NCBI GenBank assembly: GCA_021787335.1
Contig: JAJYMC010000016.1
Location: forward strand, 1-64,000
DNA from: Bacillota bacterium
GTDB taxonomy: Bacteria > Bacillota > Sulfobacillia > JAJYWN01 > JAJZPE01
Direction of reading: 5' to 3'
Length of the DNA stretch: 64,000 nucleotides
Positions 1,005 to 47,337 of the stretch are shown one piece after another; position 1 is the first letter of the stretch, and each line of letters starts with the position of its first letter. A program made the translations under genes and the position numbers. The notes below the pieces were generated by a model, which saw only the letters and a program-made list of their open reading frames with translations, made no database searches and was not told the DNA's origin.

Positions 1005-2459
1005 CTATAACCTACGCCGGCGCGACGACGAGGGCACGCCCATCTCGTTGCGGTACTTGGCCACCGTCCGCCGGGAGATGGCGATGCCCTTCTTCCCGAG
1101 GAGCTTGGTCAGGGCGTCGTCGGACAGCGGCCGGCTCGGATCCTCCCCGGCCACGAGGTCCTGGATGTGCATCTTGACGCTCTCCGACGAGATGCCGGCG
1201 GTCTCCCCGGCCGCCGCCACTCCGCTGGTGAAGAAGTACTTCAACTCGAACGTGCCCTGCGGGGTCTGGACGTACTTGTTCGAGGTCGCCCGGCTGACGG
1301 TCGACTCGTGCATCCCGATGATCTCGGCGATGTGCCTGAGGCTCATCGGCCGCAGGTGGCGCAGGCCGTGATCGAGGAAGTCGCGCTGCAGCCGGACGAT
1401 GGTCTCGGTGACCCGGTAGAGGGTCCGGCGGCGCTGCTCGATGGCCCGGATGAGCCAGAGGGCCGAGTTCAGCCGGCCTTCGATGTAGGCCCGGGCCTCG
1501 CCCAGCTGCTCCCCGTCGGCGGCCCCGGTCCCCCGGTCGAGGAGGTGCCGGTAATAGCGGTTTATACCCAGCCTGGGGACGGCCGAGTCGTTGACGATGA
1601 CGACGTAGTCCCCCTCGACCCGCTCGATGACGACGTCGGGGACGATGTACCGAATGTCGTTGGGGTCGGCGAAGCGCCGCCCCGGCCGGGGGTCGAGGGT
1701 CCGGATGAAATCGGCGGCCTGCTGGACCAGCTTGGCCGGGGCGTCGAGGGTGGCGGCCAGCTTGGCCAGGCGCCCCGAGCCCAGTTCCTCGAGGTGGCCA
1801 TCGATGATCCGCCGGGCGAGGTCGCGCACGGCCGCCCGGGCCTTGTCCGGGGGCAGCGCCTCGAGCTGCAACCGCAGGCACTCGGCCAGGTCACGGGCTC
1901 CAACGCCGGGTGGGTCGAAGATCGTGAAGACCTGGTGGACCCGGGCCACGTCGGCGACCGGGGCGCCCAGGACCTCGGCCGCTTCCCCGAGGCTGGTCCT
2001 GAGGTAGCCGTCCTCGTCGAGCATGCCGATGAAGTACTCGCCGATGCGGCGCTCGGCCGGCGTCAGCTGGCTCAGGTGCAGCTGCAGGTCCAGATGCTGC
2101 TCCAGGGTGGGGGCCTCGGACAGGCGGGACTCGACCGGACGGGCCCCGGCGTCCGGGTCACGCTCGGCGGTCGGCGTGAAACCTAGGTCGCTGCGGTCCT
2201 GGAAGTACGATTGCCAATCAAGGTCGAACTTCTCCCCCTCGCGCTCGGCCTCGCGCGGGCCGCCGTCCTCCTGGGACTGGGATGCCGGGGTGGCGGCCTC
2301 GTCGCGGACCTCGAGGACCGGATTGGTCAGGACCTGCTCGGTCAGATACTCAGACAGCTCCGTGGCCGACAACTGGAGGACAGTGATGGCCTGACGGAGC
2401 TCCGGAGTCATGATGAGCTTTTGGGTCTGCTGTTGAACCAGCTTCGGACCGAGGTCCAT
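1005..2459 (-). CDS. rpoN: RNA polymerase sigma-54 factor RpoN
   Basis: Sigma-54 directs core RNA polymerase to -24/-12 promoters and needs an AAA+ activator. The N-terminal region I is clear (KLVQQQTQKLIMTPEL, glutamine-rich activator-interacting segment). Region II is acidic. The core-binding and helix-turn-helix parts follow, and the C-terminus has the RpoN box RRTVAKYRNEMGVP. Length is about 484 residues, normal for the family. An upstream TTG at 2471 is possible, but the ATG at 2459 matches the family N-terminus and has GGTGAAG about 6 bases upstream. No sigma-54 activator gene is visible in the window. The gene is monocistronic or follows the small membrane gene at 2608-2919. Confidence 0.96.
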   Translation of the reverse strand: MDLGPKLVQQQTQKLIMTPELRQAITVLQLSATELSEYLTEQVLTNPVLEVRDEAATPASQSQEDGGPREAEREGEKFDLDWQSYFQDRSDLGFTPTAERDPDAGARPVESRLSEAPTLEQHLDLQLHLSQLTPAERRIGEYFIGMLDEDGYLRTSLGEAAEVLGAPVADVARVHQVFTIFDPPGVGARDLAECLRLQLEALPPDKARAAVRDLARRIIDGHLEELGSGRLAKLAATLDAPAKLVQQAADFIRTLDPRPGRRFADPNDIRYIVPDVVIERVEGDYVVIVNDSAVPRLGINRYYRHLLDRGTGAADGEQLGEARAYIEGRLNSALWLIRAIEQRRRTLYRVTETIVRLQRDFLDHGLRHLRPMSLRHIAEIIGMHESTVSRATSNKYVQTPQGTFELKYFFTSGVAAAGETAGISSESVKMHIQDLVAGEDPSRPLSDDALTKLLGKKGIAISRRTVAKYRNEMGVPSSSRRRRL

Positions 2460-2607
2460 GGTCTTCACCAAGGAAAGCTATTCGGCTTCCCGGTAGGTTT
2501 CCCTTTGTCGACGCGGGCGGCCATCATCCTGGCCGGCAGCGGCATTAGCTTCCCCTAGAACGGCCATTTAGCCCACCCTCCCCCACGATGCCCTGGGCGA
2601 ACGTGTT

Positions 2608-2919
2608 CTACAGAAGTGTTTCGCGTTTCCCCTCTTCTGGCCGCAGGCCACGGGGACGCCGGGTGATTCCGGCTTTGACGGTCTCACTGCTCGATGCGCC
2701 GCCCAGGATGAGGATAACGGCGACTCCAAGGATGCCAAGAAGATAGTGCCCCGTCGTGAAAGCCAGAACCACGAACCAGACGAGGCCGATGACGATCAGG
2801 ATGGGCGACAAGACCAGGGCGCCGAGGACGGCCATGATTCCCAGCAGCCAATTGGTGGCAAACGCCTGCTGGATCAGATTGAACACCGGAGCAGCCACCC
2901 GAGACATGAGTTCCGTCAT
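2608..2919 (-). CDS. Small hydrophobic membrane protein, partner of the 1087-aa protein
   Basis: A 103-residue protein starting MTELMSRVAAPVFN. It has two or three strongly hydrophobic segments (around NWLLGIMAVLGALVL, ILIVIGLVWFVVLAF and LLGILGVAVILILGG) and a basic, polar C-terminal tail (RRPRGLRPEEGKR). Its ATG overlaps the stop of the large upstream gene as ATGA, with GGAGGACAG upstream, so the two are translationally coupled and probably act together. I do not recognise the family. A role as membrane anchor or output for the large protein is only inference. Confidence 0.8.
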   Translation of the reverse strand: MTELMSRVAAPVFNLIQQAFATNWLLGIMAVLGALVLSPILIVIGLVWFVVLAFTTGHYLLGILGVAVILILGGASSSETVKAGITRRPRGLRPEEGKRETLL

Positions 2920-5900
2920 CTTGTTTCTGTCCTCCCCTCCCGTGTTGACCCGCCATTTCGAAGACGGTACATCTGGATGACCAGGTCTGCCATCGCCCCA
3001 CCCCATTGGGGGTTGGGAAACCAGAACTGATATTCCTTCGTTGAGGTGCGACAGATTATCCCTGCACGGTCGCGCTCTCCTCTGACTTCCGGTTCACCAC
3101 TGAGGTTCTCAAACAGCAGGTAGCCCTTGATACCGCCCATTATGACCCGGAGCCCATCCCGGGTCACCATGACGCCCTGTGTGCCGTCGCGTGAGGACGT
3201 GTCTTGGAAGAGCCCGACCACCTGCTCGGGATGGAGCCGGCGGCTGGTCTGCCCGTATGCGCGGATGAACCGCTCAAGGTGTGGCATCGAAATAGCGCCG
3301 GCCACACTATAGCGTTTGTCGTTCCCCCCGCCGAGGCGGTTCTTCATGCCCGCCAGGGTCCGCTGAAGGACCGCGCGCCGCTCCGGGTCGAGTCCTCGTT
3401 CGAACCCGAAGATCAGTCGCCGCAACATCGCGACAAGAGGCTCCTTAGGCACATTGGCGAGCGGGATCTCTATATGCTCGGAGTCCGTGTCGACAATGAA
3501 CCCGTCTCTACTGATGGCAATGTTGTCAATTTCGTCGAAGGCCACAGAGCTATCGGCTCCATCGGTTCCGAAACGAATCATATCGGTCGTCACGATGACC
3601 TCGGGGGCATCCTTTTCGGGATTGCCGATAGCGAAAAGCATATAGTCAGGCCCTTCGCCTCGATCTTCCGATAGGGCAAAACGCCCCTGCGCGCCGGTTA
3701 CCTGGGCGAGCTCCTCAGGCCCGACAAGGCCCACGCCCAGGTCCCCGTACTCCTTGCGAAGCTCAGCTGCTAACTCCGCTGTGCTATACCTGGTATCGTC
3801 AACCGTGATGGCCCTTCCGAAGCGCTCTCTTTCGAGCTCTATCACCCCTGCTTCGGACGCGCCAAACCGGCGGTGAAGCTCCTGCAACCTCTGAGCGAGC
3901 TCTTGTTCGCCCAAACCTAGGGAGCTGACTTGAACTAGCTGTTGCTCGTACTCCCGGGCGTAATAGCGCCCCAGGACATCTCCCTCGACGGCTTTCGAAT
4001 CTCCGGATGGCAGCCCGAAATCGGCGCGGGCCTGTTCGATGAATGCAAGGACTTCGCTCAGCGGTCTGCCGCAGCGGCTCTCGATATGCAGCCGATAACG
4101 GTCGCGAACGACCATTGCCTCCGCCTCAGCCAACTGCCCACCGGCAAGGCCGAACCGGCTCTTGATCTCTTGCAGTGTCTCAACGACAGTGTCGTCGGGC
4201 CTACCGCTGCCCCAAGCCCGGCCCAGTTCGTTCAGGTAATAGTCCTTGGGGCTGGTCCACTCGATCTTGATGGTAGAAAGCGCACGGCTCTTAAGGACCC
4301 GGCCAACATACAGCTCCAGGCGTTCGAGAGAACCACCGGCCACGGCCTGGAGTGACTCCGTCCCGGGCAGCCGGGTAAGTGTCTTCCAGGTCTCGAAAAG
4401 GTCATGGATATAATCGAAGACCCGGGGACTTACCTCGTCAGTAGGCACCCTGATCGGATAGTCGACGTCCTTGATGGTCAATGTCAGGTAACTGTTCAGG
4501 TCCGTTCCAAAACTGACTCTGTCCAGATCCCGATAGCTGCTGGCAAGCGTAACACGCCGGCCCGACCCGGAGAGCCCGGATACGTAGACGCCTGCCCGAG
4601 AAAGAACCCACGTGGAGTCAGGGTTGACCCAAATCGCGAGGATTGAAGACGAGGCCGCGGCCTCGGGGCCACAGCTTGACTTGGCTTCCGCGACGTCCTT
4701 TTGAGTCGCCTCGCTGACCATGTTCGCGGGGATGTCCACGCCCTTGCCGAGGGACTCAAGGAAGGATACCTCGTCATCCGGTGCGCCGCCGGGCCGCGTG
4801 ACCTTGAGGAGCGCCAACCTAGAACCGAATTCCGTCCGCCATTCGGGGTCTCCCTCCCGTGCCAGGGCGGCCTCCAATACGACCACCTGGGCATCGGGGT
4901 TCCTCAGCAGAGAGTCGGTCAGGGCCAGGTAGGCCTCTGAGCAGCAGGGGTTCAGAGCCAAGGCCTGGAGGAGATAGCTGGTGTATCGGCGCGGGTCGCC
5001 CTTGGCTGACTCTGAGTCTCTCAGGAGATCCCTTGCTTGGACGATGTCCTCGTTGATCTCGCCGCAACTACGCAATCCCGTCGATTGGCCCCAGGCGATG
5101 GCTATCATCTCGTACAACTTCACGAAACCTTCGTTACAGAAAGTCTCAAAGACCTCCATAGACTGCTCGAAAGTCCTCAGAAGGTCGCCATTGAGCCTCG
5201 CCTTAAGGGAGTTGCTCGCCACCATGGCGCTGACCTTGCCAACGGCCTTCCCAATCCCGTTCAAGGCGCCCACGGTGAGCATGAAGCCCAGGCTGCCTAT
5301 GGCGATGGTAGACGAGGACCCCCGCGCGAAGGCGCGCTGGGCCCGGTCGAGTTCCACGAGATCCTGCGCGGTTGCCATGCCGGTCTGGGCGGCGTCCGCC
5401 AAGTCGCCGAGCAGAGGCCAATCGAACGTAGACAGGATGTCCTCTCGGGAAGGACCTTTGACGCCCAAGAAGATCCTCATCGCCGCACGCACGGCCTCAG
5501 CGAACTTGCCAAGGCTGGCCAGGGCAAGTGCTTGTAGGTTGTCATAGTCGAACCAGGCCAGTGTCGTGGAGCTATGGAATCTCTGGGCCAAGGCGCCGAG
5601 GAATTCGGTCCGAGCCGCCACCGCGGCCCTGAAGTACAGGTGATAGAAGGGATCCGCTCGTCTCTCGGCCGTAAAGCACATGGCCAGGTCGGTGCCAGGC
5701 AGAGGAATGAGTAAGTCGGCGAGACCCTCGGTATAGTCCTCTTCTGGTTGTGACCTGGCCTTCTTCCGGTTGTGGGCCTTCTTTGAGCGCCTTCCATCCC
5801 CTCTGGGGTCAGAAGCGTTCTGGTCCCCGGCCGGTGTTGTGGCCGGCAGCGGATGCTCAGCCTGCCTAGACTTGAGGAAGGACACCCGGAGTTCCGCAGC

Positions 5901-6179
5901 GTCTTCCGCGGAAAGGCCGGCGTCGGCGCCGAACTCCCTGAGCTCTGTCTCCTCAGATTCCGCCAGTTCGTCCGTCCCCTGGTAGATGACCTCGAGGAAG
6001 TCCCTGTACTGGGCGTATTTGGAGAGCAGCTCGGCCACGGACTTGAGGCAGACGTCCGAGTCCAGCCCGAGCACCTTGGCTTTCTGTTCGAGAATCTTCC
6101 TGCCCTTCTCGGTGTCATGGGTGTTCTGCCAATACAGGCGCCTGAAGGTTTCGAGGTACTTATCCTGTGCCTCTGACAT
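2916..6179 (-). CDS. Large multidomain protein (1087 aa) with three PH-like modules; function unknown
   Basis: Start chosen at the ATG with GGAGGGAG 5 bases upstream. Residues 1-105 are helical and acidic; 120-150 is a charged low-complexity linker (RRSKKAHNRKKAR); 150-450 is mainly helical with one glycine-rich hydrophobic stretch near 290-315 and a TPR-like hairpin near 400-430. Three beta-rich segments near 511-600, 845-925 and 985-1075 share a pattern of WVL/VIV-x-GV/DMI ... Y/FDEID-x-V/I ... followed by an amphipathic helix, as in bacterial PH-like domains. Between them a helical motif ending in RFGL/DFGL/RFGA recurs about every 50 residues. No signal peptide is present. ATGA coupling to the membrane protein suggests a membrane-associated complex. 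No enzyme motif was found. Confidence 0.85.
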   Translation of the reverse strand: MSEAQDKYLETFRRLYWQNTHDTEKGRKILEQKAKVLGLDSDVCLKSVAELLSKYAQYRDFLEVIYQGTDELAESEETELREFGADAGLSAEDAAELRVSFLKSRQAEHPLPATTPAGDQNASDPRGDGRRSKKAHNRKKARSQPEEDYTEGLADLLIPLPGTDLAMCFTAERRADPFYHLYFRAAVAARTEFLGALAQRFHSSTTLAWFDYDNLQALALASLGKFAEAVRAAMRIFLGVKGPSREDILSTFDWPLLGDLADAAQTGMATAQDLVELDRAQRAFARGSSSTIAIGSLGFMLTVGALNGIGKAVGKVSAMVASNSLKARLNGDLLRTFEQSMEVFETFCNEGFVKLYEMIAIAWGQSTGLRSCGEINEDIVQARDLLRDSESAKGDPRRYTSYLLQALALNPCCSEAYLALTDSLLRNPDAQVVVLEAALAREGDPEWRTEFGSRLALLKVTRPGGAPDDEVSFLESLGKGVDIPANMVSEATQKDVAEAKSSCGPEAAASSSILAIWVNPDSTWVLSRAGVYVSGLSGSGRRVTLASSYRDLDRVSFGTDLNSYLTLTIKDVDYPIRVPTDEVSPRVFDYIHDLFETWKTLTRLPGTESLQAVAGGSLERLELYVGRVLKSRALSTIKIEWTSPKDYYLNELGRAWGSGRPDDTVVETLQEIKSRFGLAGGQLAEAEAMVVRDRYRLHIESRCGRPLSEVLAFIEQARADFGLPSGDSKAVEGDVLGRYYAREYEQQLVQVSSLGLGEQELAQRLQELHRRFGASEAGVIELERERFGRAITVDDTRYSTAELAAELRKEYGDLGVGLVGPEELAQVTGAQGRFALSEDRGEGPDYMLFAIGNPEKDAPEVIVTTDMIRFGTDGADSSVAFDEIDNIAISRDGFIVDTDSEHIEIPLANVPKEPLVAMLRRLIFGFERGLDPERRAVLQRTLAGMKNRLGGGNDKRYSVAGAISMPHLERFIRAYGQTSRRLHPEQVVGLFQDTSSRDGTQGVMVTRDGLRVIMGGIKGYLLFENLSGEPEVRGERDRAGIICRTSTKEYQFWFPNPQWGGAMADLVIQMYRLRNGGSTREGRTETR

Positions 6180-6312
6180 CCATCTCCCTCCATCCGGTAA
6201 ACTGTTCCCCATCTAGCCATGTTTTCCCTCTTTTACCATCCCGGCAAGACCGCTGGTCTACGAGGCGCTCGCGCCCCTGTTCGATGCGGAGAAGAGGCCC
6301 GAAAAAGAAGAG

Positions 6313-6336
6313 GACGGAGCCTTTACAGGCTCCGTC
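6313..6336 (-). terminator. Rho-independent terminator of glnA
   Basis: A 9-bp inverted repeat (GACGGAGCC / GGCTCCGTC, 6-base loop) is followed on the minus strand by CTCTTCTTTTTC. It lies about 65 bases beyond the glnA stop. Confidence 0.8.
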
Positions 6337-6401
6337 TATATCAATTGGGGGGAATGTGGCGTGCTTGGTGCGGCAACAGCGCGCGCGGCCCGCCGCGGGC
6401 T

Positions 6402-7892
6402 CTACATATCGTAGTACATCTGGAACTCGTAGGGGTGCGGCCGGACTTTGATCGGTTCGGCCTCGGCCCGCTTGATCTCAATCCATTCCTCGAGCAGTTC
6501 GGGCGAGAAGACGCCGCCCTTCAGGAGGAAGTCGTGGTCGGCCTCGAGGGCGTCGAGGGCCTCATCGAGGGACCCGGGCACGTTCTTGACCTTGGCCTTC
6601 TGATCGGCCGGCAGCTCGTAGATGTTGAAGTCCATCGGGCCGAAGCCGGCCTCGACGGGGTCGATCTTCCGGGCGATGCCGTCCAGGCCGGCCATGAGCA
6701 TGGCGGCGAAGGCCAGGTATGGGTTGGCCAAACTGTCCGGCGGGCGGAATTCGACCCGCTTGGCCGCCGGCGACTCGGAGTACATCGGGATGCGCACGGC
6801 CGCGCTGCGGTTTCGCTTGGAGAAGGCGATGTTGACCGGGGCCTCGTAGCCTGGGACGAGCCGCTTATAGGAGTTGGTCGTCGGGCTGGTCAGGGCCAGG
6901 AGGGCCGGGGCGTGGGCCAGAAGCCCGCCGATGTAGTACAGGGCGCTCTGGCTCAGCCCGGCATAGCCCTTGGCGTCGGCGAAAGTCGGGCGACCCTCGC
7001 GCCATAGGCTCTGGTGAACGTGCATCCCACTGCCGTTGTCGCCGAAGAGCGGCTTCGGCATGAAGGTCACGCTCTTGCCGGCCCGGTGGGCCATGTTGCG
7101 GACGATGTACTTATACATCATGACCTTGTCGGCCATGTTCAGGAGCGTGTCGTAGCGGAGGTCGATCTCGACCTGGGCGGCCGTCGCCACCTCGTGGGTG
7201 TGGGACTCGACGGTCAGCCCCAGCTCCTCCATCTGCCGGACCATCTCCGAGCGCAGCTCCGAGGTGTGGTCGTGGGGCGGGGTCCGGTTGTAGCCGCCCT
7301 TGTTCGGGACCTTCGACCCCAGGTTCTTGCCCTGGCCGTTGGCCGTCCCCGTGTTCCAGGCAGCCTCCTCGGCGTCGAAGGAGTAGAAGGCGGAGTTCGG
7401 GGTGTTCCCGAAGCGGACGTCGTCGAGGATGAAGAACTCGAGCTCCGGCCCCCAGTAGCTGGCGTCGGCGACGCCGGTCGACCGGAGGTGGTCCTCGGCG
7501 CGCGCGGCCGTCAGCCGCGGGTCCTTGGCGTAGCCGCGGCCGCCCACCGGCCCGGCGCCGGGCTCGGAGATGCTGCAGATGAGGCTGATGGTGGTCTGGG
7601 CGAAGAACGGGTCGATGACCGCCGTGGCCGGGTCGGCCACGAGGAGCATGTCGCTCTCATCGATGGACTGGAACCCTCTCACGCTCGAACCGTCGAAGCC
7701 GACGCCCTCGGTGAACATGGACGGGCTCAGCTCGGCGACGGACAACGTCTTGTGCTGCCAGATCCCGGTGAGGTCGACGAACTTCAGGTCGACCTGGCGG
7801 ACCTCGCGCTCTTCGGCCAGGGCCAGGACATCGTCAACGGTCGCGGGGCGGTCTTCCTCCGGGCGTTTCGGGACGTACTTCTCGGCTCTCAT
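6402..7892 (-). CDS. glnA: Glutamine synthetase type I
   Basis: Makes glutamine from glutamate, ammonia and ATP in the cytoplasm. Recognisable blocks in order: DLTGIWQHKTL beta-grasp, FDGSSVRGFQ, GPELEFFILD (metal-binding Glu), NKGGY, HTHEVATAAQVEID, FMPKPLFGDNGSGMHVHQSLW (ATP/metal site) and RNRSAAVRIP. The segment NIYELPADQ contains the Tyr that is adenylylated in GSI-beta enzymes, and the insertion typical of that subtype appears to be present. Start chosen at MRAEKYV (ATG 7892) with GAGAGGGGAAG upstream; a longer frame exists, but it reads through glnR. The gene overlaps the 3' end of glnR by 59 bases, forming a glnR-glnA operon. Confidence 0.96.
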   Translation of the reverse strand: MRAEKYVPKRPEEDRPATVDDVLALAEEREVRQVDLKFVDLTGIWQHKTLSVAELSPSMFTEGVGFDGSSVRGFQSIDESDMLLVADPATAVIDPFFAQTTISLICSISEPGAGPVGGRGYAKDPRLTAARAEDHLRSTGVADASYWGPELEFFILDDVRFGNTPNSAFYSFDAEEAAWNTGTANGQGKNLGSKVPNKGGYNRTPPHDHTSELRSEMVRQMEELGLTVESHTHEVATAAQVEIDLRYDTLLNMADKVMMYKYIVRNMAHRAGKSVTFMPKPLFGDNGSGMHVHQSLWREGRPTFADAKGYAGLSQSALYYIGGLLAHAPALLALTSPTTNSYKRLVPGYEAPVNIAFSKRNRSAAVRIPMYSESPAAKRVEFRPPDSLANPYLAFAAMLMAGLDGIARKIDPVEAGFGPMDFNIYELPADQKAKVKNVPGSLDEALDALEADHDFLLKGGVFSPELLEEWIEIKRAEAEPIKVRPHPYEFQMYYDM

Positions 7893-35926: not shown

Positions 35927-37765
35927 ATGTGTGGAATCGTCGGCTACGTCGGGCCCAAAGAGGCCCTGCCGGTTCTGATCAACGGTTTGAAACGCCTCGA
36001 ATACCGCGGCTATGACTCGTCCGGGGTGGCCATCCTGACCGACCACCACGTCGAGGTGCGGAAGTCGGTCGGTCGCCTGTCCGTCCTCGAAGGGCAGCTC
36101 AAGAAGGGCGCGCCGGAAGGGCACACGGGCATCGGCCACACCCGCTGGGCGACCCACGGCCGGCCGTCGGACATCAACGCCCACCCGCACAGCGACTGCT
36201 CCGGGCGGTTCGCGGTCGTCCACAACGGGATCGTCGAGAACTTTCGCGGGCTGAAGGAGTGGCTCGTCTCCGAGGGCCACATCTTCAAGTCCGAGACCGA
36301 TACTGAGGTCATCCCCCACCTCATCGAGCAGTACTACAGCGGTGACCTGGTCGACGCGGTCCGGCAGGCGGCCTCCCGCCTGCGCGGCTCGTACGCGCTG
36401 GTCGTGGCCAGCTCCGAGGAGCCGGAGCACATCATCGCCGTCCGCAAGGACAGCCCGCTCGTCATCGGCCTCGGCGAGGGCGAGAACTTCGTCGCCTCGG
36501 ACGTGCCGGCCATCCTCGAGCACACCCGCCGCGTCTACATCCTCGAGGACGGCGAGGTGGCTGACATCACCGCCGAGACAGCCGACGTCTTCGACCTCAA
36601 GGGTGAGGTCAAGAAGAAGAAGGCGTTCATCGTCAAGTGGGACCCGGTGCAGGCCGAGCGGGGCGGCTACGAGCACTTCATGCGGAAGGAAATCCACGAG
36701 CAGCCCAAGGCTTTCCGCGACACGCTCACCGGGCGAGTGGCGCCGGACCGCAAGTCGGTCAAGCTCGATGAGCTGACCATGACCCCGGAGAAGATAAAGG
36801 GCCTGAAGAAGGTGTTCATCACCGCGGCCGGCACGGCCTACCACGCCGGGCTCGTCGGTAAGTACCTGTTCGAGAAGCTGGCCCGGCTGCCGGCCGAGGT
36901 CGACCTGGCCTCCGAGTACCGCTACCGCGACCCCATCCTCGACGCCAAGGAGAACCTGGTCATCGTCGTGAGCCAGTCCGGCGAGACCGCCGACACGCTG
37001 GCCGCCATGCGCGAGTCGCGGGCCCGCGGGGTGCACGCCCTGGCCATCACCAACGTGGTCGGGTCGAGCGTCTCGCGCGAGGCCGACGACGTCATCTACA
37101 CCTGGGCCGGGCCGGAGATCGCCGTCGCCTCGACCAAGGCCTACACGACCCAGATCCTTGTCCTGACTCTGCTGGCGGTGCACTTCGGGCAGATCCGCGG
37201 GACGCTGGACGCGGCCAAGGCCCAGAAGGTCCTGTCTGAACTGGTCGAGCTGCCGCAGAAGGCCCAGGAGCTGCTCTCGCACGAGGAGTCCATCGCCGAG
37301 TTCGCCCGCAAGTGCGCGGCCTGGAAGGACGTCTTCTTCATCGGGCGCGGCCTGGACTATGCGGTGTCGCTGGAGGGCCAGCTCAAGCTGAAGGAAATCT
37401 CGTACATCCACGCCGAGGCCTACGCCGCCGGCGAGTTGAAGCACGGCACTCTGGCCCTGGTCGTCGAGGGCGTGCCGGTCATCGCCCTGTCGACTCAGAG
37501 GGACCTGCGCGAGAAGATGATCTCGAACATCCGTGAGGTCAAGGCCCGCGACGCCTACGTCCTCGGGATCGCCACCGAAGGCTCCGGGGCCGACGAGATG
37601 AAGCATCACTCCGACAAAGTCATCGCCATCCCCGAGACCGACGGGCTGGTGGCCCCGGCGCTGGCCGTCATTCCGCTGCAGCTGCTGGCCTACCACGCGG
37701 CCGTGGCCCGCGGGTGCGACGTGGATAAGCCGCGCAACCTGGCCAAGAGCGTGACGGTGGAGTAG
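35927..37765 (+). CDS. glmS: Glutamine-fructose-6-phosphate aminotransferase
   Basis: Makes glucosamine-6-P from fructose-6-P and glutamine. 612 residues. Begins MCGIVGYVG, so Cys2 is the nucleophile; the glutaminase domain has GHTRWATHG and HNGIVEN, followed by two SIS domains (ITAAGTAYHAG, SQSGETADTL, VASTKAYTTQ) and the C-terminal [16 protein letters not shown] 35927 is preferred over ATG 35918, which lies directly on GGAGGA. Preceded by the glmS ribozyme. A duplicate of its last 280 bases lies at 38.65-38.93 kb beyond the CPBP gene. Confidence 0.97.
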   Translation: MCGIVGYVGPKEALPVLINGLKRLEYRGYDSSGVAILTDHHVEVRKSVGRLSVLEGQLKKGAPEGHTGIGHTRWATHGRPSDINAHPHSDCSGRFAVVHNGIVENFRGLKEWLVSEGHIFKSETDTEVIPHLIEQYYSGDLVDAVRQAASRLRGSYALVVASSEEPEHIIAVRKDSPLVIGLGEGENFVASDVPAILEHTRRVYILEDGEVADITAETADVFDLKGEVKKKKAFIVKWDPVQAERGGYEHFMRKEIHEQPKAFRDTLTGRVAPDRKSVKLDELTMTPEKIKGLKKVFITAAGTAYHAGLVGKYLFEKLARLPAEVDLASEYRYRDPILDAKENLVIVVSQSGETADTLAAMRESRARGVHALAITNVVGSSVSREADDVIYTWAGPEIAVASTKAYTTQILVLTLLAVHFGQIRGTLDAAKAQKVLSELVELPQKAQELLSHEESIAEFARKCAAWKDVFFIGRGLDYAVSLEGQLKLKEISYIHAEAYAAGELKHGTLALVVEGVPVIALSTQRDLREKMISNIREVKARDAYVLGIATEGSGADEMKHHSDKVIAIPETDGLVAPALAVIPLQLLAYHAAVARGCDVDKPRNLAKSVTVE

Positions 37766-38649: not shown

Positions 38650-38931
38650 CGTCGCCCTGTCGACCCAGAAGGACCTGCGCGAGAAGGTGATCTCGAACAT
38701 CCGCGAGGTCAAGGCCCGTTACGCCTACGTCCTCGGGATCGCCCCCGAGGGCTCCGGGGCGGAATGAAGCACCATTCCGACCAGGTCATCGCCATCCCCG
38801 AGACCGACGGGTTGGTGGCTCCGGCCCTGGCGGTCATCCCTAAGATACTGCTGGCCTACCACGCGGCAGTGGCCCGCGGGTGCGATGTGGATAAGCCGCG
38901 GAACCTGGCGAAGTGCGTGACGGTGGAGTAG
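38650..38931 (+). pseudogene. Duplicated, frameshifted 3' end of glmS
   Basis: About 280 bases aligning to 37486-37765 with roughly 90% nucleotide identity, reaching the same stop. A 4-base deletion near 38759 (GGGGCCGACGAGATGAAG became GGGGCGGAATGAAG) shifts the frame and gives an early stop. It lacks the SIS and glutaminase parts. It and the glmS 3' end form direct repeats around the CPBP gene. Confidence 0.93.
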
Positions 38932-39107: not shown

Positions 39108-40682
39108 TTACATGAGCTCATCAGATCCCCACAAGCGTCGGTACTCCTCTAAGCCGCTGGATTGGCAGTCGCAGCCAACCCGAGCATTCATCTTTGACCA
39201 GCGAGGTGCGGGATTCAGGAAATTGAACAGCGCCGAGTTCCCCAGTTCTGGGGGAAAAGCGCTTCGGATTCCGTGCACAGCCATCCGGATAAGCCTAGAA
39301 CCCATTAGGAGCCCTGCTGCTACCGACACAAAACCGACAGACCACTCGTGCTTCTGGGTTTGGTCTTGAAACCGCCGGAGAGCCGCTTCTCCGAGAGTAC
39401 CGCAGCGAGGGCGTTCGAGATAGACTTCAATAAGGGCCCCATTAACCCCAGCCTCCTCGTACAGCTCTTGGCGTTCGTCCGCGGGAATGGACCTTATGGA
39501 CTCAGCGAACTCTTCCAGTGTGGCGGTGGTCTCTACCGGGTTGAAGCATTTGAGACACTCGCCGCCCGACTTGATGTCGTAGAGGGAGACCATGGCCCTA
39601 AGGTCTAGAGTACTCCCCCCAATGAGGATGCGCGGCCAGAAGCTCTGAATGGCATGGCGAGCGGAGTTCTTGTCTACGCAGGAGAGCACTAGTTCATATC
39701 GGAAGGCCATTTCCTTCTGCGCTAGATTAGGCCTTTGAGTAGGACGAGCGAAGTCCTGGCAATACTTCTGCCACGTGTCGGGATAGGCATACGCGGTGAA
39801 ATGCGCTGCTTCTAGATACACCTTGGCAAGCTCGGTCTTTGACTGTCCAATACTGTCCTGCACTGCTAGGACGTAGCGGTTTAGGTTGGTGTCGTCGATA
39901 ATGTCCTTGTCGACGATGGTCATGTGTCCCTGTAGCCCGGGCCAAGCAACGAGGCTCGCAAGGAGGGCCTGACCCACTGCTCCAAGCCCCACGACATAGA
40001 CATCAGGCAGGGTGAGCTCGGTCACCGTCGGATCGGACATTTCATCCCATGTGTTATAGGCCCGATGGTCCCACACTGAGTAGAACAAGGCATCCAATTG
40101 GCTTCCCGCCCCTGGGCGCAGTCCAGCAAGGTGCTTGAACGCTTCGCCGGCTACCAAGCAGGCGGCAAAATAGGGCCCGAGCGGGCAGCGATTGGAGGGT
40201 ACAACCGAGGGCTGGTTGGACGGTAGACCACAGAAGGCTCTAAAGCCATCTCCCAAAGCTGCGATTGTCGGGATTTCCACGAACAAATCCGGCGCCTGAC
40301 CGACCGTTATCAAGAGACTGGTGTCCTTAGGAGGGCCAGGCGAGGTTCCGAGGGACATAGCCGCACCGGCAATCATCTTGGCGGTATTCAACAGTGCTAG
40401 CTGCAGGTTTTCCCCGCTGCCGAATGGGAAGCAACACGGAACGACAGGGACTTCAGGGATTGACAGGACGAGCTCCTGAATGACCCCGAACTGTCGGGCC
40501 AACAGGTTGGTGACCATCCACAGCAAATGCTGGCCGCCTTCGGTCACCGATACTTCAGGCGAAGCCACAAGGCAGACCCGGTTCCAATCTTCACTTTGGG
40601 TACTCTTCCGCCCGGGATCCCCCCGCAGGTGCCGATCTCCTAACCGGTGTGCCAGGTGGCGGTCAAGGTTGACTCCTGACAT
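39108..40682 (-). CDS. E1-like activating enzyme (ThiF/UBA family)
   Basis: A 524-residue protein. The adenylation domain starts near residue 220: YVVGLGAVGQALLASL is the nucleotide-binding glycine loop, VDKDIIDDTNLNRY the E1 D/N-x-x-N-R motif. CLKC (376-379) and CDC (504-506) supply four cysteines for a ThiF-type zinc site. Cys427 in ERPRCGTLGE is the best candidate catalytic cysteine. Residues 1-215 form an extra N-terminal domain with VPSNRCPLGPYFAACLVAGEAFK. ATG start follows AAGGAG; the gene overlaps the JAMM gene by 20 bases. In E1 enzymes the C-terminal carboxylate of a ubiquitin-like protein is adenylated and passed to cysteine and then to E2. Last gene of the operon. Confidence 0.92.
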   Translation of the reverse strand: MSGVNLDRHLAHRLGDRHLRGDPGRKSTQSEDWNRVCLVASPEVSVTEGGQHLLWMVTNLLARQFGVIQELVLSIPEVPVVPCCFPFGSGENLQLALLNTAKMIAGAAMSLGTSPGPPKDTSLLITVGQAPDLFVEIPTIAALGDGFRAFCGLPSNQPSVVPSNRCPLGPYFAACLVAGEAFKHLAGLRPGAGSQLDALFYSVWDHRAYNTWDEMSDPTVTELTLPDVYVVGLGAVGQALLASLVAWPGLQGHMTIVDKDIIDDTNLNRYVLAVQDSIGQSKTELAKVYLEAAHFTAYAYPDTWQKYCQDFARPTQRPNLAQKEMAFRYELVLSCVDKNSARHAIQSFWPRILIGGSTLDLRAMVSLYDIKSGGECLKCFNPVETTATLEEFAESIRSIPADERQELYEEAGVNGALIEVYLERPRCGTLGEAALRRFQDQTQKHEWSVGFVSVAAGLLMGSRLIRMAVHGIRSAFPPELGNSALFNFLNPAPRWSKMNARVGCDCQSSGLEEYRRLWGSDELM

Positions 40683-41226
40683 CAATTAGCAGCTCCTTTT
40701 CCGAAGGGCGGATGACGATAACCCGGCGGGCTGCGTCTGTTTCCGAAAGGAGATACCAGTAGCCCTGGTATTCGTGGACCCCTATGCGATTTGGCCATCG
40801 TTCCGACCACCGTCCATAGTTAGGGAAGACTAGCGATAGGGCTTTCCTGGAGTTGACACAGAGATCATCGTAGGCGGAATGCTCGACCAGCCTACCAGGG
40901 TGCGTATGAAGCTGGGCCAAGTTTTTCCACCCGTTCCTTCTGGTGGCAAGGGAGACCTTCTCCATGGCCGTAGCCTCAACTGTAAAACTCCCCCAATGGT
41001 TGCGCTGGTCGGGAACAACAACGGCTCTAACGGTGCCCCCGCCACTATCTCGTTCGCCATACCAGAAGCAGCAAGATTCGACCCCGCGGGGTGCATACTC
41101 AGAGAACACCTGAAGCGTCAGGCGTAGAATGCTCTCTGGGACGCCCAAGACCAAACCGGGCAATCTATAGGTCCCGTTGGGGAGAGGGCGCCGAACGGCC
41201 CCTTGGTCAAAGGCGTCTCTGCTCAT
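40663..41226 (-). CDS. JAB/JAMM-family deubiquitinase-like metallopeptidase
   Basis: A 187-residue protein with a complete zinc site: Glu50 in GVESCCFWYG, then HTHPGRLVEHSAYDD, where His107, His109 and Asp120 bind zinc and Ser117 completes the HxHx7SxxD motif. Such peptidases trim ubiquitin-like precursors or remove conjugates. Its ATG overlaps the E2-like stop (ATGA), and it overlaps the E1-like start by 20 bases, so dosage is coupled. Expected role here: expose the glycine end of the ubiquitin-like protein and/or reverse conjugation. Confidence 0.92.
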   Translation of the reverse strand: MSRDAFDQGAVRRPLPNGTYRLPGLVLGVPESILRLTLQVFSEYAPRGVESCCFWYGERDSGGGTVRAVVVPDQRNHWGSFTVEATAMEKVSLATRRNGWKNLAQLHTHPGRLVEHSAYDDLCVNSRKALSLVFPNYGRWSERWPNRIGVHEYQGYWYLLSETDAARRVIVIRPSEKELLIDVRSQP

Positions 41227-41708
41227 TCCCGCCGACCCCGGTAGTATGGTGGACGTAGGCAGTCGCGCAGGACATTCAGGGTCAGTGCAAACGTATGTCT
41301 TCCCGCGTCCCAGAGGTGCCAGGGTTCACAGCTGTGCCGGACTTGATAGAATTCCAGAGTCGAGGAGTTGCAGATAAGTTGTCCTACGCTGGCGTTGTAT
41401 TGCGGGTGGAAGCCAATTTCGCTGCACCGCTCGACACTCGGGAGCCAGCGCACATCAGCCGGGTAATCGTAACGGAGAGTCTTGGGATTGACTGCCCGGA
41501 CGCTGGGAGGCCATTCGGGGTAGTAGGCGAACCCGAATCTGAAGTAATAGTCATCGGTTCCACCGTCTTCTCGAACAGCCTGCAGTGGGATGAGAAGGGT
41601 GAGCGGGTCCAACTGCTTCCAGCCCACACTTTCGAGTGTCTGGCCCTGGAGAACCACGCGTAGGTGCTTCTCCAGAGCTTCTATGGCCCGTGCCGGGGTC
41701 ACCGGCAC
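41223..41708 (-). CDS. E2-like ubiquitin-conjugating enzyme
   Basis: A 161-residue protein with the E2 fold signature: YYPEWPPSVRAVNP (cf. YPxxPPxVxFxxP), then FHPQYNASVGQLIC (cf. HPN...GxIC), placing the active-site cysteine at Cys113, and W130/W133 in the following helical part (CEPWHLWDAGRH). The N-terminal helix ARAIEALEKHLRVVL is also E2-like. Cysteine is retained, so conjugation is plausible. It lies 23 bases after the ubiquitin-like gene and overlaps the JAMM gene by 4 bases. Confidence 0.88.
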   Translation of the reverse strand: MPVTPARAIEALEKHLRVVLQGQTLESVGWKQLDPLTLLIPLQAVREDGGTDDYYFRFGFAYYPEWPPSVRAVNPKTLRYDYPADVRWLPSVERCSEIGFHPQYNASVGQLICNSSTLEFYQVRHSCEPWHLWDAGRHTFALTLNVLRDCLRPPYYRGRRE

Positions 41709-41731
41709 GGGCTCTTCTCCTAGCCTTGCGA

Positions 41732-42010
41732 TTAGCGCGCACCTCCAGTAGCACTCCGGATTTCGAACCTCAGGGGGTGCACTATTTTGGCGTCGAAGAC
41801 CTCGCGCACCGTCTTGTTCAGGTAAGGGGTGAGATCCGTCCCACTGGCTGACTTGAACAGGTCGCCTTGCTTCTTGGTCTCTTCGAGCTCAGTATAGGCC
41901 GCGTCCCACACCTGCTGTAGGTTCCAGCCCCACTCGGCGTGGAACTTCACTTCCTCGTTTGTGTTGAGGTACGTCACTTGGATTTCCGGACGGCCATGCT
42001 CTTCGTTCAT
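41732..42010 (-). CDS. Ubiquitin-like (beta-grasp) modifier protein
   Basis: A 92-residue protein with one beta-grasp-like domain: IQVTYLNTNEEVKFHAEWGW (two strands), helix NLQQVWDAAYTELEETKK, and the late strands HPLRFEIR. It ends SATGGAR, i.e. a Gly-Gly followed by two extra residues, as in ubiquitin-like precursors that need trimming. First gene of the operon; ATG 42010 has GGGTGA 6 bases upstream (TTG 42013 is the alternative). Identity rests on both its fold pattern and its place next to E2, JAMM and E1 genes. Confidence 0.82.
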   Translation of the reverse strand: MNEEHGRPEIQVTYLNTNEEVKFHAEWGWNLQQVWDAAYTELEETKKQGDLFKSASGTDLTPYLNKTVREVFDAKIVHPLRFEIRSATGGAR

Positions 42011-42275
42011 CAACGATCACCCTTTCACGATGACATTTCAGAAGTTAGACGATGGTTGCCAAGAGGGAATCCCCGGGTCCGACGCGAAAGGACACACAGG
42101 CTGTGCCCTAGGGGCCGCTGGCGCTCATTCCCGCTGGTTCCCCCAATGGGCGCCTCAGCAGACATAGAAGGGGGGTAGCTCGCAACCTGAGGAGGGGGCG
42201 GTGCTGCCCTTCTTCTATTACGTGAGACGTGGCCTCCTTCCCGTGCCCCGCGCGGGGTCAGACTTCTCGAAACCT

Positions 42276-42305
42276 ATACTACTCGAAAGCGGAGCAAGAA
42301 GTCAA
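42276..42305 (-). promoter_or_regulatory. Promoter of the ubiquitin-like operon
   Basis: On the minus strand TTGACT (42305-42300) and TAGTAT (42281-42276), spacer 18. TTTCGAG occurs twice, flanking the -10. The -10 region contains TATACTACT when read on the plus strand (42275-42283), the same 9-mer found over the opposite promoter. About 265 bases of 5' leader separate it from the first gene. Confidence 0.6.
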
Positions 42306-42347: not shown

Positions 42348-42383
42348 TTTACATTGATGACTGTCGGCTATATACTACTAGTA
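42348..42383 (+). promoter_or_regulatory. Promoter and candidate operator of the XRE-ImmA pair
   Basis: TTTACA (42348-42353), 17-base spacer, TATACT (42371-42376). Overlapping the -10 are TATACTACT (42371-42379) and the 8-bp palindrome TACTAGTA (42376-42383), suited to binding by the XRE regulator. Confidence 0.65.
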
Positions 42384-42400
42384 AGGGGGGAATCTAACGG

Positions 42401-42724
42401 TTGGCGAATGACGAAGCTGATCAGGAGTTTTACAGACGGGTTGGTGTTAAGATAAGGTCCGCCCGGGAAAACCTTCACATTAGTCAAGAGGAACTGGGGC
42501 GCCGAGTAGGTTTGCTGAGAACCTCGGTTACAAATATAGAGAAAGGCCGTCAGAGACTCTTTGCTCACACGCTATGGGCTTTGGCCAGGGCTCTAGCGAT
42601 TCCCGTTGAAGGTCTATTTCCTGCTTCAGGAGAACCCTACGAGGAAGCATTACTGGAACTCCCTGTTAAACACCGGTTTGCGGTTAAAGCAGCCCTTCGT
42701 GAAACAGAGGAGGATAAGACATGA
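42401..42724 (+). CDS. XRE-family transcriptional regulator
   Basis: A 107-residue protein with an N-terminal helix-turn-helix: RVGVKIRSARENLHISQEEL followed by GRRVGLLRTSVTNIEKGRQR, then a short C-terminal helical part. TTG start with AGGGGGGA 9 bases upstream. It overlaps the ImmA gene by 4 bases (ATGA). In such pairs the peptidase cleaves the repressor when a signal arrives. It is divergent from the ubiquitin-like operon and may control it. AT-richer than the core genes. Confidence 0.92.
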   Translation: MANDEADQEFYRRVGVKIRSARENLHISQEELGRRVGLLRTSVTNIEKGRQRLFAHTLWALARALAIPVEGLFPASGEPYEEALLELPVKHRFAVKAALRETEEDKT

Positions 42725-43236
42725 TTAACAGACGAAGAATCAAGGACAAAGTGGCTGAGTTGTTAAGGCAATTCAGCGTTGTCCAACCTCCTGTGGACGT
42801 TGAACGGATTGCCAGGCGCTTGGGGATACGAGTGCGGGAAACGGGATTCGATGGAGATGTGTCGGGTCTGTTTGTTCGCAAGGGTCAAGACGCAGTCATA
42901 GGCGTCAACAGCATGCATTCGGAACAACGTAAGCGTTTCACTATAGCCCATGAGATTGGGCATTTTGTACTCCATATCTCAAAGCCCATCTATGTGGACG
43001 AGCTAGTGCTGCATTTTAGGAATAGGACTTCTGCTGAAGGGCGCGACCCTGATGAGATTGAGGCTAATGCCTTTGCCGCGGAACTGCTGATGCCGGAAGA
43101 TTTCGTTCAACAGAGCATGAGTGACCTAGACAATTGGGACGATGAAGCAGTCTCCAAACTGGCCAAAGAATACAAGGTCAGTGTTGAGGCGTTTGTGTAT
43201 AGGCTAACGAACCTAGGCTACATGCTAGACCTGTAA
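42721..43236 (+). CDS. ImmA/IrrE-family metallopeptidase
   Basis: A 171-residue protein with the zinc-binding HEIGH motif in FTIAHEIGHFVLH and the downstream Glu-containing segment DEIEANAFAAELLMPE, diagnostic of ImmA/IrrE. Expected to cleave the XRE repressor encoded just upstream and so derepress target genes. ATG overlaps the regulator's stop. Followed by a strong terminator. Confidence 0.94.
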   Translation: MINRRRIKDKVAELLRQFSVVQPPVDVERIARRLGIRVRETGFDGDVSGLFVRKGQDAVIGVNSMHSEQRKRFTIAHEIGHFVLHISKPIYVDELVLHFRNRTSAEGRDPDEIEANAFAAELLMPEDFVQQSMSDLDNWDDEAVSKLAKEYKVSVEAFVYRLTNLGYMLDL

Positions 43237-43308: not shown

Positions 43309-43524
43309 GGAGCTGGGAGGAGGTCGGCACAGGGAATGCAGCCTGCCGCACCTCCGTGCGGGTCTCCCCTGACAGGCGCCTCCCCAGGACCCAACCGAAG
43401 CAGGACGTGGCCCTCAACGGCCACCGCTTCAGCCGTAACACTTTCGCAGACCAAGGGAATGGCGGGCCCAGTCTTGATATCAGAGGGCTCGCCTAGCCCA
43501 ATAGGAGAGAACGGCACTGTTCGG

Positions 43525-44706: not shown

Positions 44707-47337
44707 GTGAGAAGGCCTCGCTACCTGCTGGTTTTCATCCTGTCCCTGCTCCTGTTGGTCAACCCGGCGTCCGGCGCTTGGGCGGCCGAAGGCCAGACCA
44801 ACAACGGGGTCATCACTCCCCGGCTCTGGGCGTCGTCGCAGACCTACGACTGGTACAAGGCTCTGGATATCCTGACCGAACGCTCCAAGAGAGAGCCGCA
44901 GACCTTCAGCTACACCTTCACGGTCGAGGCCAGCGTGGTCCGGCTCAGCATCGACAACGACGGGGTCAGGGAGCTGGACGTGGCTGTCAACGGCCAGCGC
45001 CTGAACCTGAACACCTTCTTCGACCAGGGTAGGGGCCAAGCCAGCTTCGATATCAGCGGGCTGGTGCGGTGGGGGACGAACACCCTCGAGGTGCAGGCCC
45101 TGGGCACGCCGAACGCCACCGCTAAGATAGCGGTCGAGGCGCCGGCCCTCACGGTCCGCCTCCTGCACATCAACGACACGCACGGGAAGCTCGACCCGTT
45201 CCCGAAGATCGCCGCCTACGTCAAGGACGCCAAGGCCCAGGCGGTCGCCTCGCAGAACAGCGTCTTCTTCATCGACGCGGGCGACGACTTCAGCGGCGAC
45301 CCGGTCACCGACCTGAACAAGGGCATCCCGATGATCGAGGTCCTCAACGCCTCCGGCCTCGACCTTTTGGCCGTGGGCAACCACAACTTCGATTATGGCC
45401 CGGCCAATACGCAGGCCCGCCGGGTCGAATCGGAGTTCCCGTGGCTCTCCGCCAACACCGTCGTCGTCGACCAGTCGCTGACGCCCATTGAGCCCTTCAA
45501 CGACACGTTCATCTACACCACGGGCGCCGGCCAGAAGATAGCCTTCATCGCTCTGACCGAGACGCCTCCGTCGACCAGCGTCAAGAACACGGTCGGCCTG
45601 CGCTTCGACGACCCGCTGGCGACCGCCCAGGCCGAGGTCAACGAGGTGCGCGACCAGGCCAGCCTGGTGGTCGTCGTCTCCCATGACGGCGAGGACTTCG
45701 ACGAGCGGCTGGCCGCCTTCGTCCCGGGCATCGACCTCATCATCGGCGGCCACTCGCACACCTATAACAGCACCCCGGTGGTCGTCAACGGCGTGCCCAT
45801 CGTCCAGGTCGGCTCGAACGCCCAGTACCTGGGCGACGTGCTCGTCCGGCAGGCGGGGACGGTGGCCGTCACCGGCGGCGCGGCGGGCGGCGCCTACACG
45901 GTCAGGGTGGCCGGCCTAACGGCGGTCGACCCGGACGTGAAGACCATCGTCGATGGCTGGAACGCCCTCATGGCGCCGATGCTCGACGCCAAGATCGGCT
46001 ACACCCCCACCGAGATGAACCGGGATGACCGCTACATTAAGGACGTCTCCATCGGCAACCTCATCACCGACGCCATGCGGTCCTACATGGGCACGGAGAT
46101 CGCCCTGACCAACTGCGGCGGCATCCGGGCCTCGATCCCCGCCGGCGACATTACCATGCGTGAGGTCTACACGGTCCTGCCGTTCGGCAACTTCGTCCAG
46201 AGGTTCAACCTGACCGGCGACCAGATAAGGCAGGTCATCGAGTACTCGTACGTCCGTGACAACCGGTTCCAGCTCGACCTGCAGACCTCCGGCCTGACCT
46301 ACACCATCTTTACCAAGCCGGGCGGCGGCCTGGACCACGTCGTCCTGAAGGTCAACGGGCAGCCCATCGACCCGAACCGGCTCTACAGCGTGGCCATCGT
46401 CGACTACATCGGGAACGGCGGCAGCGGTTACCCCATCCCGAGCATGGCCAGCCCGCTGGACCTCTCGTCAGACGTCGATGCCATCATCGTCGGCGACTTC
46501 ATCAAGGCTATCGGCAACCTGAGCTATCCGGCCTCCGAAGGCCGCATCGTGATCAAGGCCGTGCCGACCCCGATGCCGGTGACCAAGCTCAACTTCTACA
46601 ACAGCTCGAGCCTCTTGGCCGCGGACAGCGGGACGCTGGTCAAGCTGACCAACCAGGCCGACGTGCTGGTCTGGGGCGAGTCCACGGCCTACCAGTATGA
46701 GCGCAGCTCCACCGCGCCCAAGAACTTCGTCAAGATCGACGCCGGCCAGCCCATCCCGCTGGCGGCCCTGCAGTCGGTCGGCGGCGGCAAGGTGGTCGGC
46801 ATCGGGGCCATCCTGATCGCCAACGGCTATCGCACCGCCTACCAGAACCCGCAGTGGTTCACGAACCTGCTGGACTTCCTGACCGGGAGCCAGAGCGGCA
46901 CGGTCCTTATCGACGAGGGCCACGGCCAGTACTACGACAACACGCGGTTAACCCAGTACCGGGACTTCGCGAGCGACCGCGGCTACACCCTGACCTACAC
47001 CGGCAAGAACGTCCCCCTGACCGCCGCCAGGCTGGCGGGCGCGGACGTCCTGGTCATCACCACGCCGGGCAGCGTCGGCGTCTACACGACGGATGAGCTG
47101 GCCGCCCTGAACGCCTGGGTGGCCGGGGGCGGGGACGTCGTCCTGATGTCCCAGACTGACTACAACAACAACTCCAACCCGACCGAGATGAACAACATCG
47201 CCGCGGGCATCGGCTCGGTCATCCGGTTCGACAGCGACGAGGTCCGTGACAACACCAACAAGGACGGCACCGCTAACTACAGCCCAACCACGACCCAGTT
47301 CAACCCGGCCTACCCGACGTTGCTGAAGCTGCGGTAG
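44707..47337 (+). CDS. Secreted 5'-nucleotidase/2',3'-cyclic phosphodiesterase-like protein with extra C-terminal domain
   Basis: An 876-residue exported protein. The signal peptide is RRPRYLLVFILSLLLLVNPA with an AWA-AEG cleavage site. Residues about 25-145 form a beta-rich domain. The metallophosphatase domain has LLHINDTHGK, DAGDDFSGD, GNHNFDYG, SHDGEDF and GGHSHTYN, all metal ligands present. The 5'-nucleotidase C-terminal domain has TNCGGIRASIPAGDIT and VLPFGNFVQRF. A further 230-residue C-terminus includes a GATase-like segment (VLIDEGHGQYYDNTRL, WVAGGGDVVLMSQ). No LPXTG anchor. GTG with GAGGAGG upstream. It presumably salvages extracellular nucleotides. Confidence 0.92.
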   Translation: MRRPRYLLVFILSLLLLVNPASGAWAAEGQTNNGVITPRLWASSQTYDWYKALDILTERSKREPQTFSYTFTVEASVVRLSIDNDGVRELDVAVNGQRLNLNTFFDQGRGQASFDISGLVRWGTNTLEVQALGTPNATAKIAVEAPALTVRLLHINDTHGKLDPFPKIAAYVKDAKAQAVASQNSVFFIDAGDDFSGDPVTDLNKGIPMIEVLNASGLDLLAVGNHNFDYGPANTQARRVESEFPWLSANTVVVDQSLTPIEPFNDTFIYTTGAGQKIAFIALTETPPSTSVKNTVGLRFDDPLATAQAEVNEVRDQASLVVVVSHDGEDFDERLAAFVPGIDLIIGGHSHTYNSTPVVVNGVPIVQVGSNAQYLGDVLVRQAGTVAVTGGAAGGAYTVRVAGLTAVDPDVKTIVDGWNALMAPMLDAKIGYTPTEMNRDDRYIKDVSIGNLITDAMRSYMGTEIALTNCGGIRASIPAGDITMREVYTVLPFGNFVQRFNLTGDQIRQVIEYSYVRDNRFQLDLQTSGLTYTIFTKPGGGLDHVVLKVNGQPIDPNRLYSVAIVDYIGNGGSGYPIPSMASPLDLSSDVDAIIVGDFIKAIGNLSYPASEGRIVIKAVPTPMPVTKLNFYNSSSLLAADSGTLVKLTNQADVLVWGESTAYQYERSSTAPKNFVKIDAGQPIPLAALQSVGGGKVVGIGAILIANGYRTAYQNPQWFTNLLDFLTGSQSGTVLIDEGHGQYYDNTRLTQYRDFASDRGYTLTYTGKNVPLTAARLAGADVLVITTPGSVGVYTTDELAALNAWVAGGGDVVLMSQTDYNNNSNPTEMNNIAAGIGSVIRFDSDEVRDNTNKDGTANYSPTTTQFNPAYPTLLKLR

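Follow-up and report, generated by a model that had tools for sequence, protein, structure and literature searches.

A Bil-like ubiquitin-conjugation operon beside a predicted repressor–protease pair in a Bacillota genome

Genes of the conjugation locus

The stretch of DNA analysed here (64,000 nucleotides, called the window below) carries on its minus strand an operon of four open reading frames (ORFs), spanning 39108-42013, which encode in this order a ubiquitin-like modifier (Ubl), an E2-like conjugating enzyme, a JAMM/Prok-JAB peptidase and an E1 activating enzyme. An earlier reading of the letters alone (the original prediction) had claimed four complete genes of this kind here, and the ORFs bear this out, with the catalytic residues intact. 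The BilA-like Ubl gene (41732-42013) encodes a protein of 93 amino acids (aa) with one beta-grasp domain and the C-terminus TGG-AR; it starts at the TTG at 42013 or at the in-frame ATG at 42010, the latter being the end originally given. After a gap of 23 bases follows the BilB-like E2 gene (41223-41708, 161 aa), with a YPxxPPxVxxxNP motif, Cys113, Glu119 and His125, which overlaps by 4 bases with the BilC-like JAMM gene (40663-41226, 187 aa; Glu50, H107xH109 and S117xxD120). The BilD-like E1 gene (39108-40685, 525 aa) encodes an N-terminal pseudo-adenylation half, an active adenylation half, Cys428 and a zinc CxxC. Its overlap with the JAMM gene is 23 bases from the TTG at 40685 and 20 from the ATG at 40682; the ATG is the preferred start, and AAGGAG lies nine bases upstream of it.

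The key residues named in the original prediction were recovered, as were its overlaps of 4 and 20 bases (the second counted from the E1 ATG). The Ubl ORF ends in TGGAR, in line with the proposed GG-AR tail, and GGA is kept in Ubl homologues. Cys113 of the E2 is invariant in 12 aligned bacterial and archaeal homologues. The JAMM signature HxHx7SxxD with its Glu50 is complete (His107-x-His109, x7, Ser117-x2-Asp120), and 6 homologues all have Glu50, His109, Ser117 and Asp120, one of them with Tyr for His107. In the E1, the nucleotide loop GxGxxG (233-238), Asn267, Arg270, Lys283, Asp338, CxxC 377/380 and Cys428 are fully or almost fully conserved across 6 homologues; the conserved cysteine first proposed as Cys427 is the same residue, numbered 427 from the ATG and 428 from the TTG.

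Divergent from the operon, on the plus strand, lie two overlapping genes which the original prediction had missed. One (42401-42724) encodes a helix-turn-helix (HTH) repressor of CapH/ImmR type (Pfam HTH_3 2.6e-10; PADLOC capH 2.5e-8), and the other (42721-43236) a 171-aa M78 zinc peptidase of CapP/ImmA type with a HEIGH motif (Pfam Peptidase_M78 9.9e-28; PADLOC capP 4.1e-38). This regulator pair (42401-43236) belongs to the conjugation locus.

Relationship to Bil systems

The closest solved homologues of all four operon proteins are those of Bil, namely BilA (by fold), BilB, BilC and BilD; Bil and Bub are defined here as in later papers and in the titles of PDB entries. Pfam gave ThiF in the E1 (E = 2.4e-20), Prok-JAB in the JAMM protein (1.7e-4, under the cut-off) and nothing more, and NCBIfam had no name for any of the four. 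PADLOC models matched the E2 (BilB, 0.0038), the JAMM protein (BilC, 1.2e-9) and the E1 (BilD, 2.5e-22); on the BilD model the window E1 scored 77 bits, against 57 for the E1 of rhizobial record L007, which is closely related to the solved BilD from rhizobia. Since the ThiF, BilC and BilD matches are this strong and the same four-gene order recurs in rhizobia, archaea and Eremiobacterota, a chance arrangement is excluded.

In searches of the PDB, the E1 as a single sequence matched BilD best (8tyz_A, 1.7e-14), and with a profile built from six relatives, none of them canonical Bil, the same chain was matched at 2.2e-35 over positions 24-479; by hhalign, the E1 aligned to BilD with 99.7% probability over 397 columns. 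The top match of the JAMM protein was BilC (8tyx_B, 7.3e-6). Our first E2 and Ubl profiles contained L007, a near-copy of the solved Bil proteins, and their strong PDB matches were set aside as biased; the Ubl match was used for the length of solved BilA only. Upon repeating the E2 search without canonical Bil sequences, L007 among those removed, BilB was the sole significant match (8tyz_C, E 3e-4), in an alignment that places PP motif and cysteine together, and hhalign gave 93% probability to a BilB relative. The Ubl had no PDB match by sequence. Its AlphaFold model (pLDDT 84) has beta-beta-alpha-beta-beta order, and Foldseek against the whole PDB ranked BilA best (8tyx_A, E 2.1e-4), followed by UFM1 and NEDD8; the beta-grasp fold is present in the model.

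The original prediction had compared the gene order to Bil, and L007 indeed has the same Ubl-E2-JAMM-E1 order. It had also proposed an uncharacterised subtype on the strength of two differences, neither of which stands: the modifier was said to have one domain rather than two, but solved BilA (8tyx_A) is a single domain of 98 residues and L007 has a full-length 98-aa homologue; and the E1 was said to have a 215-residue extra N-terminal domain, but BilD (535 aa) has the same domain, and the E1 profile aligned along BilD between residues 30 and 471. In comparison with BilABCD (PDB 8tyx-8tz0; L007 and L016), a single-domain Ubl of about 95 aa is found in both, as are an E1 of 519-535 aa that combines an N-terminal and an adenylation half with a catalytic Cys (here Cys428), the E2 PP motif, Cys and Glu at +6, and the residues of the deconjugase-type JAMM protein. 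Divergence from characterised Bil does hold on other grounds. The L007 E2 has its Cys followed by Glu at +6, His at +8 and His at +13, corresponding to the CEHH positions C138/E144/H146/H151 of BilB (PMC11354881), whereas the window E2 reads C-x5-E-x5-H, with no His at +8 and one at +12, and is shorter (161 against about 204 aa). The window E1 also lies outside the BilD group, and an HTH-M78 switch adjoins the operon. It is on the motif of the E2 and the tree position of the E1 that any subtype status would rest. We conclude that the operon is, as judged from its sequence, a divergent relative of the known Bil system and not a new kind of system.

A single-protein scan of genome contigs gave no match, and two-sequence alignment was needed to find relatives. 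The Ubl-E2-JAMM-E1 order is common to Rhizobium sp. WYJ-E13 (L005), a Sinorhizobium fredii GR64 plasmid (L006), L007, Thaumarchaeota/Nitrosotalea (L009; a second record, L010, has identical match statistics) and an Eremiobacterota metagenome-assembled genome (L011). The nearest E1 relatives, from rhizobial plasmids, Nitrosotalea and Eremiobacterota, share about 28-33% identity, and the closest full relatives by tblastn are L006 and L005 (E1 33%, E2 36-39%, JAMM 38-40%). In these two, the HTH and M78 genes are likewise upstream and divergent (directly so in L006, with two genes between in L005), but the modifier (237-251 aa) has additional beta-grasp domains at its N-terminus, and the CapP-like peptidases have 296-308 aa with a C-terminal extension that the window peptidase lacks. 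Nitrosotalea (L009/L010) and Eremiobacterota (L011) share with the window a single Ubl (in theirs, of 102-126 aa and ending in GGA(L)), a C-x5-E-x5-H E2, JAMM and E1, and differ in their regulators, with a TrmB-type HTH in L009 and an AbiEi/AbiEii pair in L011. Related operons differ in how many Ubl domains they encode (a single one in the window and in L009, more in L005 and L006), and this count is therefore no subtype marker. The C-x5-E-x5-H motif occurs in the E2 of the window, L009, L005 and L011, with Gln for Glu in L006.

In more distant form, the four-gene operon also recurs in a genome from the same phylum (L003/L034). Canonical Bil operons are L007, L014, L016 and L018 (L007, L016 and L018 rhizobial), a canonical-looking Bil fragment occurs in the same class (L020), and there are haloarchaeal cousins (L008, L015). 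The distribution is rare and patchy: among sampled genomes, and with the window's own genome counted each time, the E2 turned up in 2 of 154 from the class, of which one is canonical, and in 2 of 398 from the phylum. Phage records and viral contigs held no relative; the E2 alignment was too diverse for such a scan. With Bub taken as outgroup, the E1 trees join canonical BilD with L003 and the haloarchaea (support 98/99, and 85/86 upon removal of long-branched L002); outside this group stand the E1s of the window, L005, L006, L009 and L011. A clade of these five is neither supported nor rejected (approximately unbiased P value, p-AU, 0.48), and a group of the window E1 and L003 alone was rejected (p-AU 0.005).

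Several of these records have features of their own. In L011, Tyr replaces the first of the metal-binding His residues of the JAMM protein (4563-5030; YSH), which may therefore be inactive, and the AbiEi/AbiEii-type toxin-antitoxin pair (1920-3547), divergent to the Bil-like operon, occupies the place of the HTH-M78 genes. The canonical rhizobial Bil operon of L018 (4521-8143) is followed by TIR-domain and caspase-family genes. In the haloarchaeal plasmid operons of L008 and L015, also in Ubl-E2-JAMM-E1 order, the E2 keeps its Cys and has Lys in place of Glu.

The regulator pair and a second Ubl locus

Like CapH+CapP, ImmR-ImmA and DdrO-IrrE, the window pair consists of an HTH gene overlapping a HExxH M78 gene and stands beside an immune-type operon. 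Control of CBASS by CapP-CapH and its association with Bub operons have been published (PMC13373217, PMC10233336), and CapH+CapP also controls operons related to CBASS (PMC13373217). The capP match covers positions 3-154 of 242 of the model, and the window protein stops before the C-terminal part. In PprI, a GAF-like domain is needed for activation by single-stranded DNA (ssDNA), and the GAF-truncated protein (residues 1-176) does not bind ssDNA or respond to it (PMC10904395). Because the ImmA-like window peptidase has 171 aa without such a part, and truncated PprI is unresponsive, an ImmA-like mode appears likelier than direct ssDNA sensing.

Between the divergent genes, a consensus scan suggested two weak candidate promoters, TTGACT-18-TAGTAT for the operon (42276-42305, minus strand) and TTTACA-17-TATACT for the regulator genes (42348-42376, plus strand). 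Two copies of an 18-nt repeat, read on the plus strand and matching at 15 of 18 positions, cover the predicted -10 boxes: TATACTACTCGAAAGCGG (42275-42292) that of the operon and TATACTACTAGTAAGGGG (42371-42388) that of the regulators.

The same genome (3.55 Mb) has a second Ubl locus on contig C64, where a Ubl gene and a JAMM-E1 fusion (569 aa) occupy 5235-7452 of record L035, with no E2 gene seen beside them. Together with a divergent HTH-M78 pair, the locus spans 4015-7452; this pair is paralogous to that of the window (HTH 49% and M78 50% identical). Of three M78 matches to the window peptidase in the genome, the third is weak (2.8e-5), and each of the two close ones lies next to one of the two Ubl-E1 loci. 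The candidate operator motif was looked for at the second locus and not found.

Probable role and genomic setting

Since the nearest characterised systems are Bil (ISG15-like), a listed phage-defence system (PMC10952713), defence is the likeliest role, and we consider it probable that this Bil-like operon, whose branch lies apart from the canonical BilD group, serves against phage under its own repressor–protease switch. The original prediction had described both Bil and Bub as acting in anti-phage defence, which holds for Bil; for Bub, phage protection is said not to have been shown (PMC13373217). From the observed genes, residues, Bil homology, conserved operon and regulator association, we infer the signal, catalytic steps and target as follows. 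The HTH protein would repress the conjugation operon and itself until stress, with DNA damage or infection as the probable signal, leads the M78 peptidase to cleave it and so turns the operon on. The JAMM protein would then trim the Ubl behind Gly-Gly, removing Ala-Arg, and the E1 would adenylate the Ubl and carry it on Cys428. Cys113 of the E2 would receive the Ubl and pass it to lysines of target proteins, as in Bil, and the JAMM protein would also reverse conjugates. Bil conjugates its Ubl to phage structural proteins.

Several observations weigh against this reading. The E2 does not have the CEHH motif (PF14455 Metal_CEHH), has no Pfam or NCBIfam match, and its predicted structure, from three sequences, reached a pLDDT of 46 without yielding the fold. 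By hhalign, the Ubl shows no significant sequence similarity with canonical BilA (2%). The peptidase has no C-terminal domain of the kind that senses ssDNA in PprI and may do so in CapP, which makes direct ssDNA sensing doubtful. The repeated 18-nt motif is an operator candidate marginally above chance, 10 of 1000 shuffles being as good. Finally, the flanking genes looked at, encoding an Rce1-like protease, a Fpg/Nei-type DNA glycosylase and a nucleotidase, include no other defence system.

The last point would also suit a switch that turns on tagging of host proteins in a DNA-damage or general stress response instead of defence, as would the fact that the HTH-M78 pairs ImmR-ImmA, DdrO-IrrE and CapH-CapP respond to DNA damage (PMC10233336, PMC10904395); the same possibility has been raised for Bub (PMC13373217). 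We regard it as rather unlikely, given that the closest homologues are listed as phage defence (PMC10952713), that CBASS and other immune operons are under switches of this kind (PMC13373217), and that the locus looks acquired. Regulators of DNA-damage type, together with Ubl and a ThiF E1, are shared with Bub operons as well, of which 219 of 544 carry CapW or CapH+CapP (PMC13373217), and the L006 modifier is of multiubiquitin type, with best PDB matches that include multi-ubiquitin proteins and, weakly, BubA. Membership of the Bub pathways was nevertheless rejected on gene content, E1 tree and E1 alignment length, and is highly unlikely: the operons L013 and L017 (Bub by inference) consist of multiubiquitin, ThiF and DUF6527 with no annotated JAMM or comparable E2, a composition not seen in the window; the trees place their distant E1s outside the group (support about 100/99); the Bub E1 aligned over 86 columns, against 397 for BilD; and no Bub E1 is among the PDB matches of the E1 profile. 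Bub fits this operon poorly.

Hardly plausible is a sulfur-carrier module of a biosynthetic pathway, in which a ThiS/MoaD-like protein would work with E1 and JAMM and the E2-like gene would be unrelated to conjugation. JAMM, E1 and Ubl do occur in sulfur transfer, and ThiF, MoeB and ThiS-type E1s share a superfamily, but the E2-like gene with its conserved Cys and PP motif is present in all relatives seen, and the BilD-like N-terminal half, Cys428, the regulator pair and an operon free of biosynthetic genes speak against it.

In a further, tentative reading, the operon may be the bacterial face of a Bil branch that is shared with archaea and has a non-CEHH E2; the two Ubl pathways of the genome would then be coordinated through paralogous ImmA-like switches without direct ssDNA sensing, possibly with targets other than phage tails. 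The operon widens the range of bacterial and archaeal ubiquitin-like cascades and suggests that a Bil-like operon can do without a CEHH motif and without a multi-domain modifier. Moreover, the presence of two Ubl pathways beside closely related repressor–protease switches in one genome makes the upstream signal testable.

An acquired accessory locus fits the low GC content at third codon positions (0.43-0.73 in the locus block; glmS and the nucleotidase gene on its flanks have 0.94), the lack of an E2 match in one same-genus and one same-family genome, and the degenerate copies of glmS and nucleotidase sequence around the locus. An empty site was sought in the same genus and could not be shown, glmS lying there at contig ends. 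In the window, the 3' end of glmS (37482-37765) is repeated about 1.17 kb downstream at 38652-38931 (88-92% identical), beyond the Rce1-like protease gene, possibly as a scar of integration at glmS. To the right of the regulator genes, 43399-43489 repeats in degenerate form (91 bp, 73%) a part (44972-45062) of the nucleotidase gene that lies downstream.

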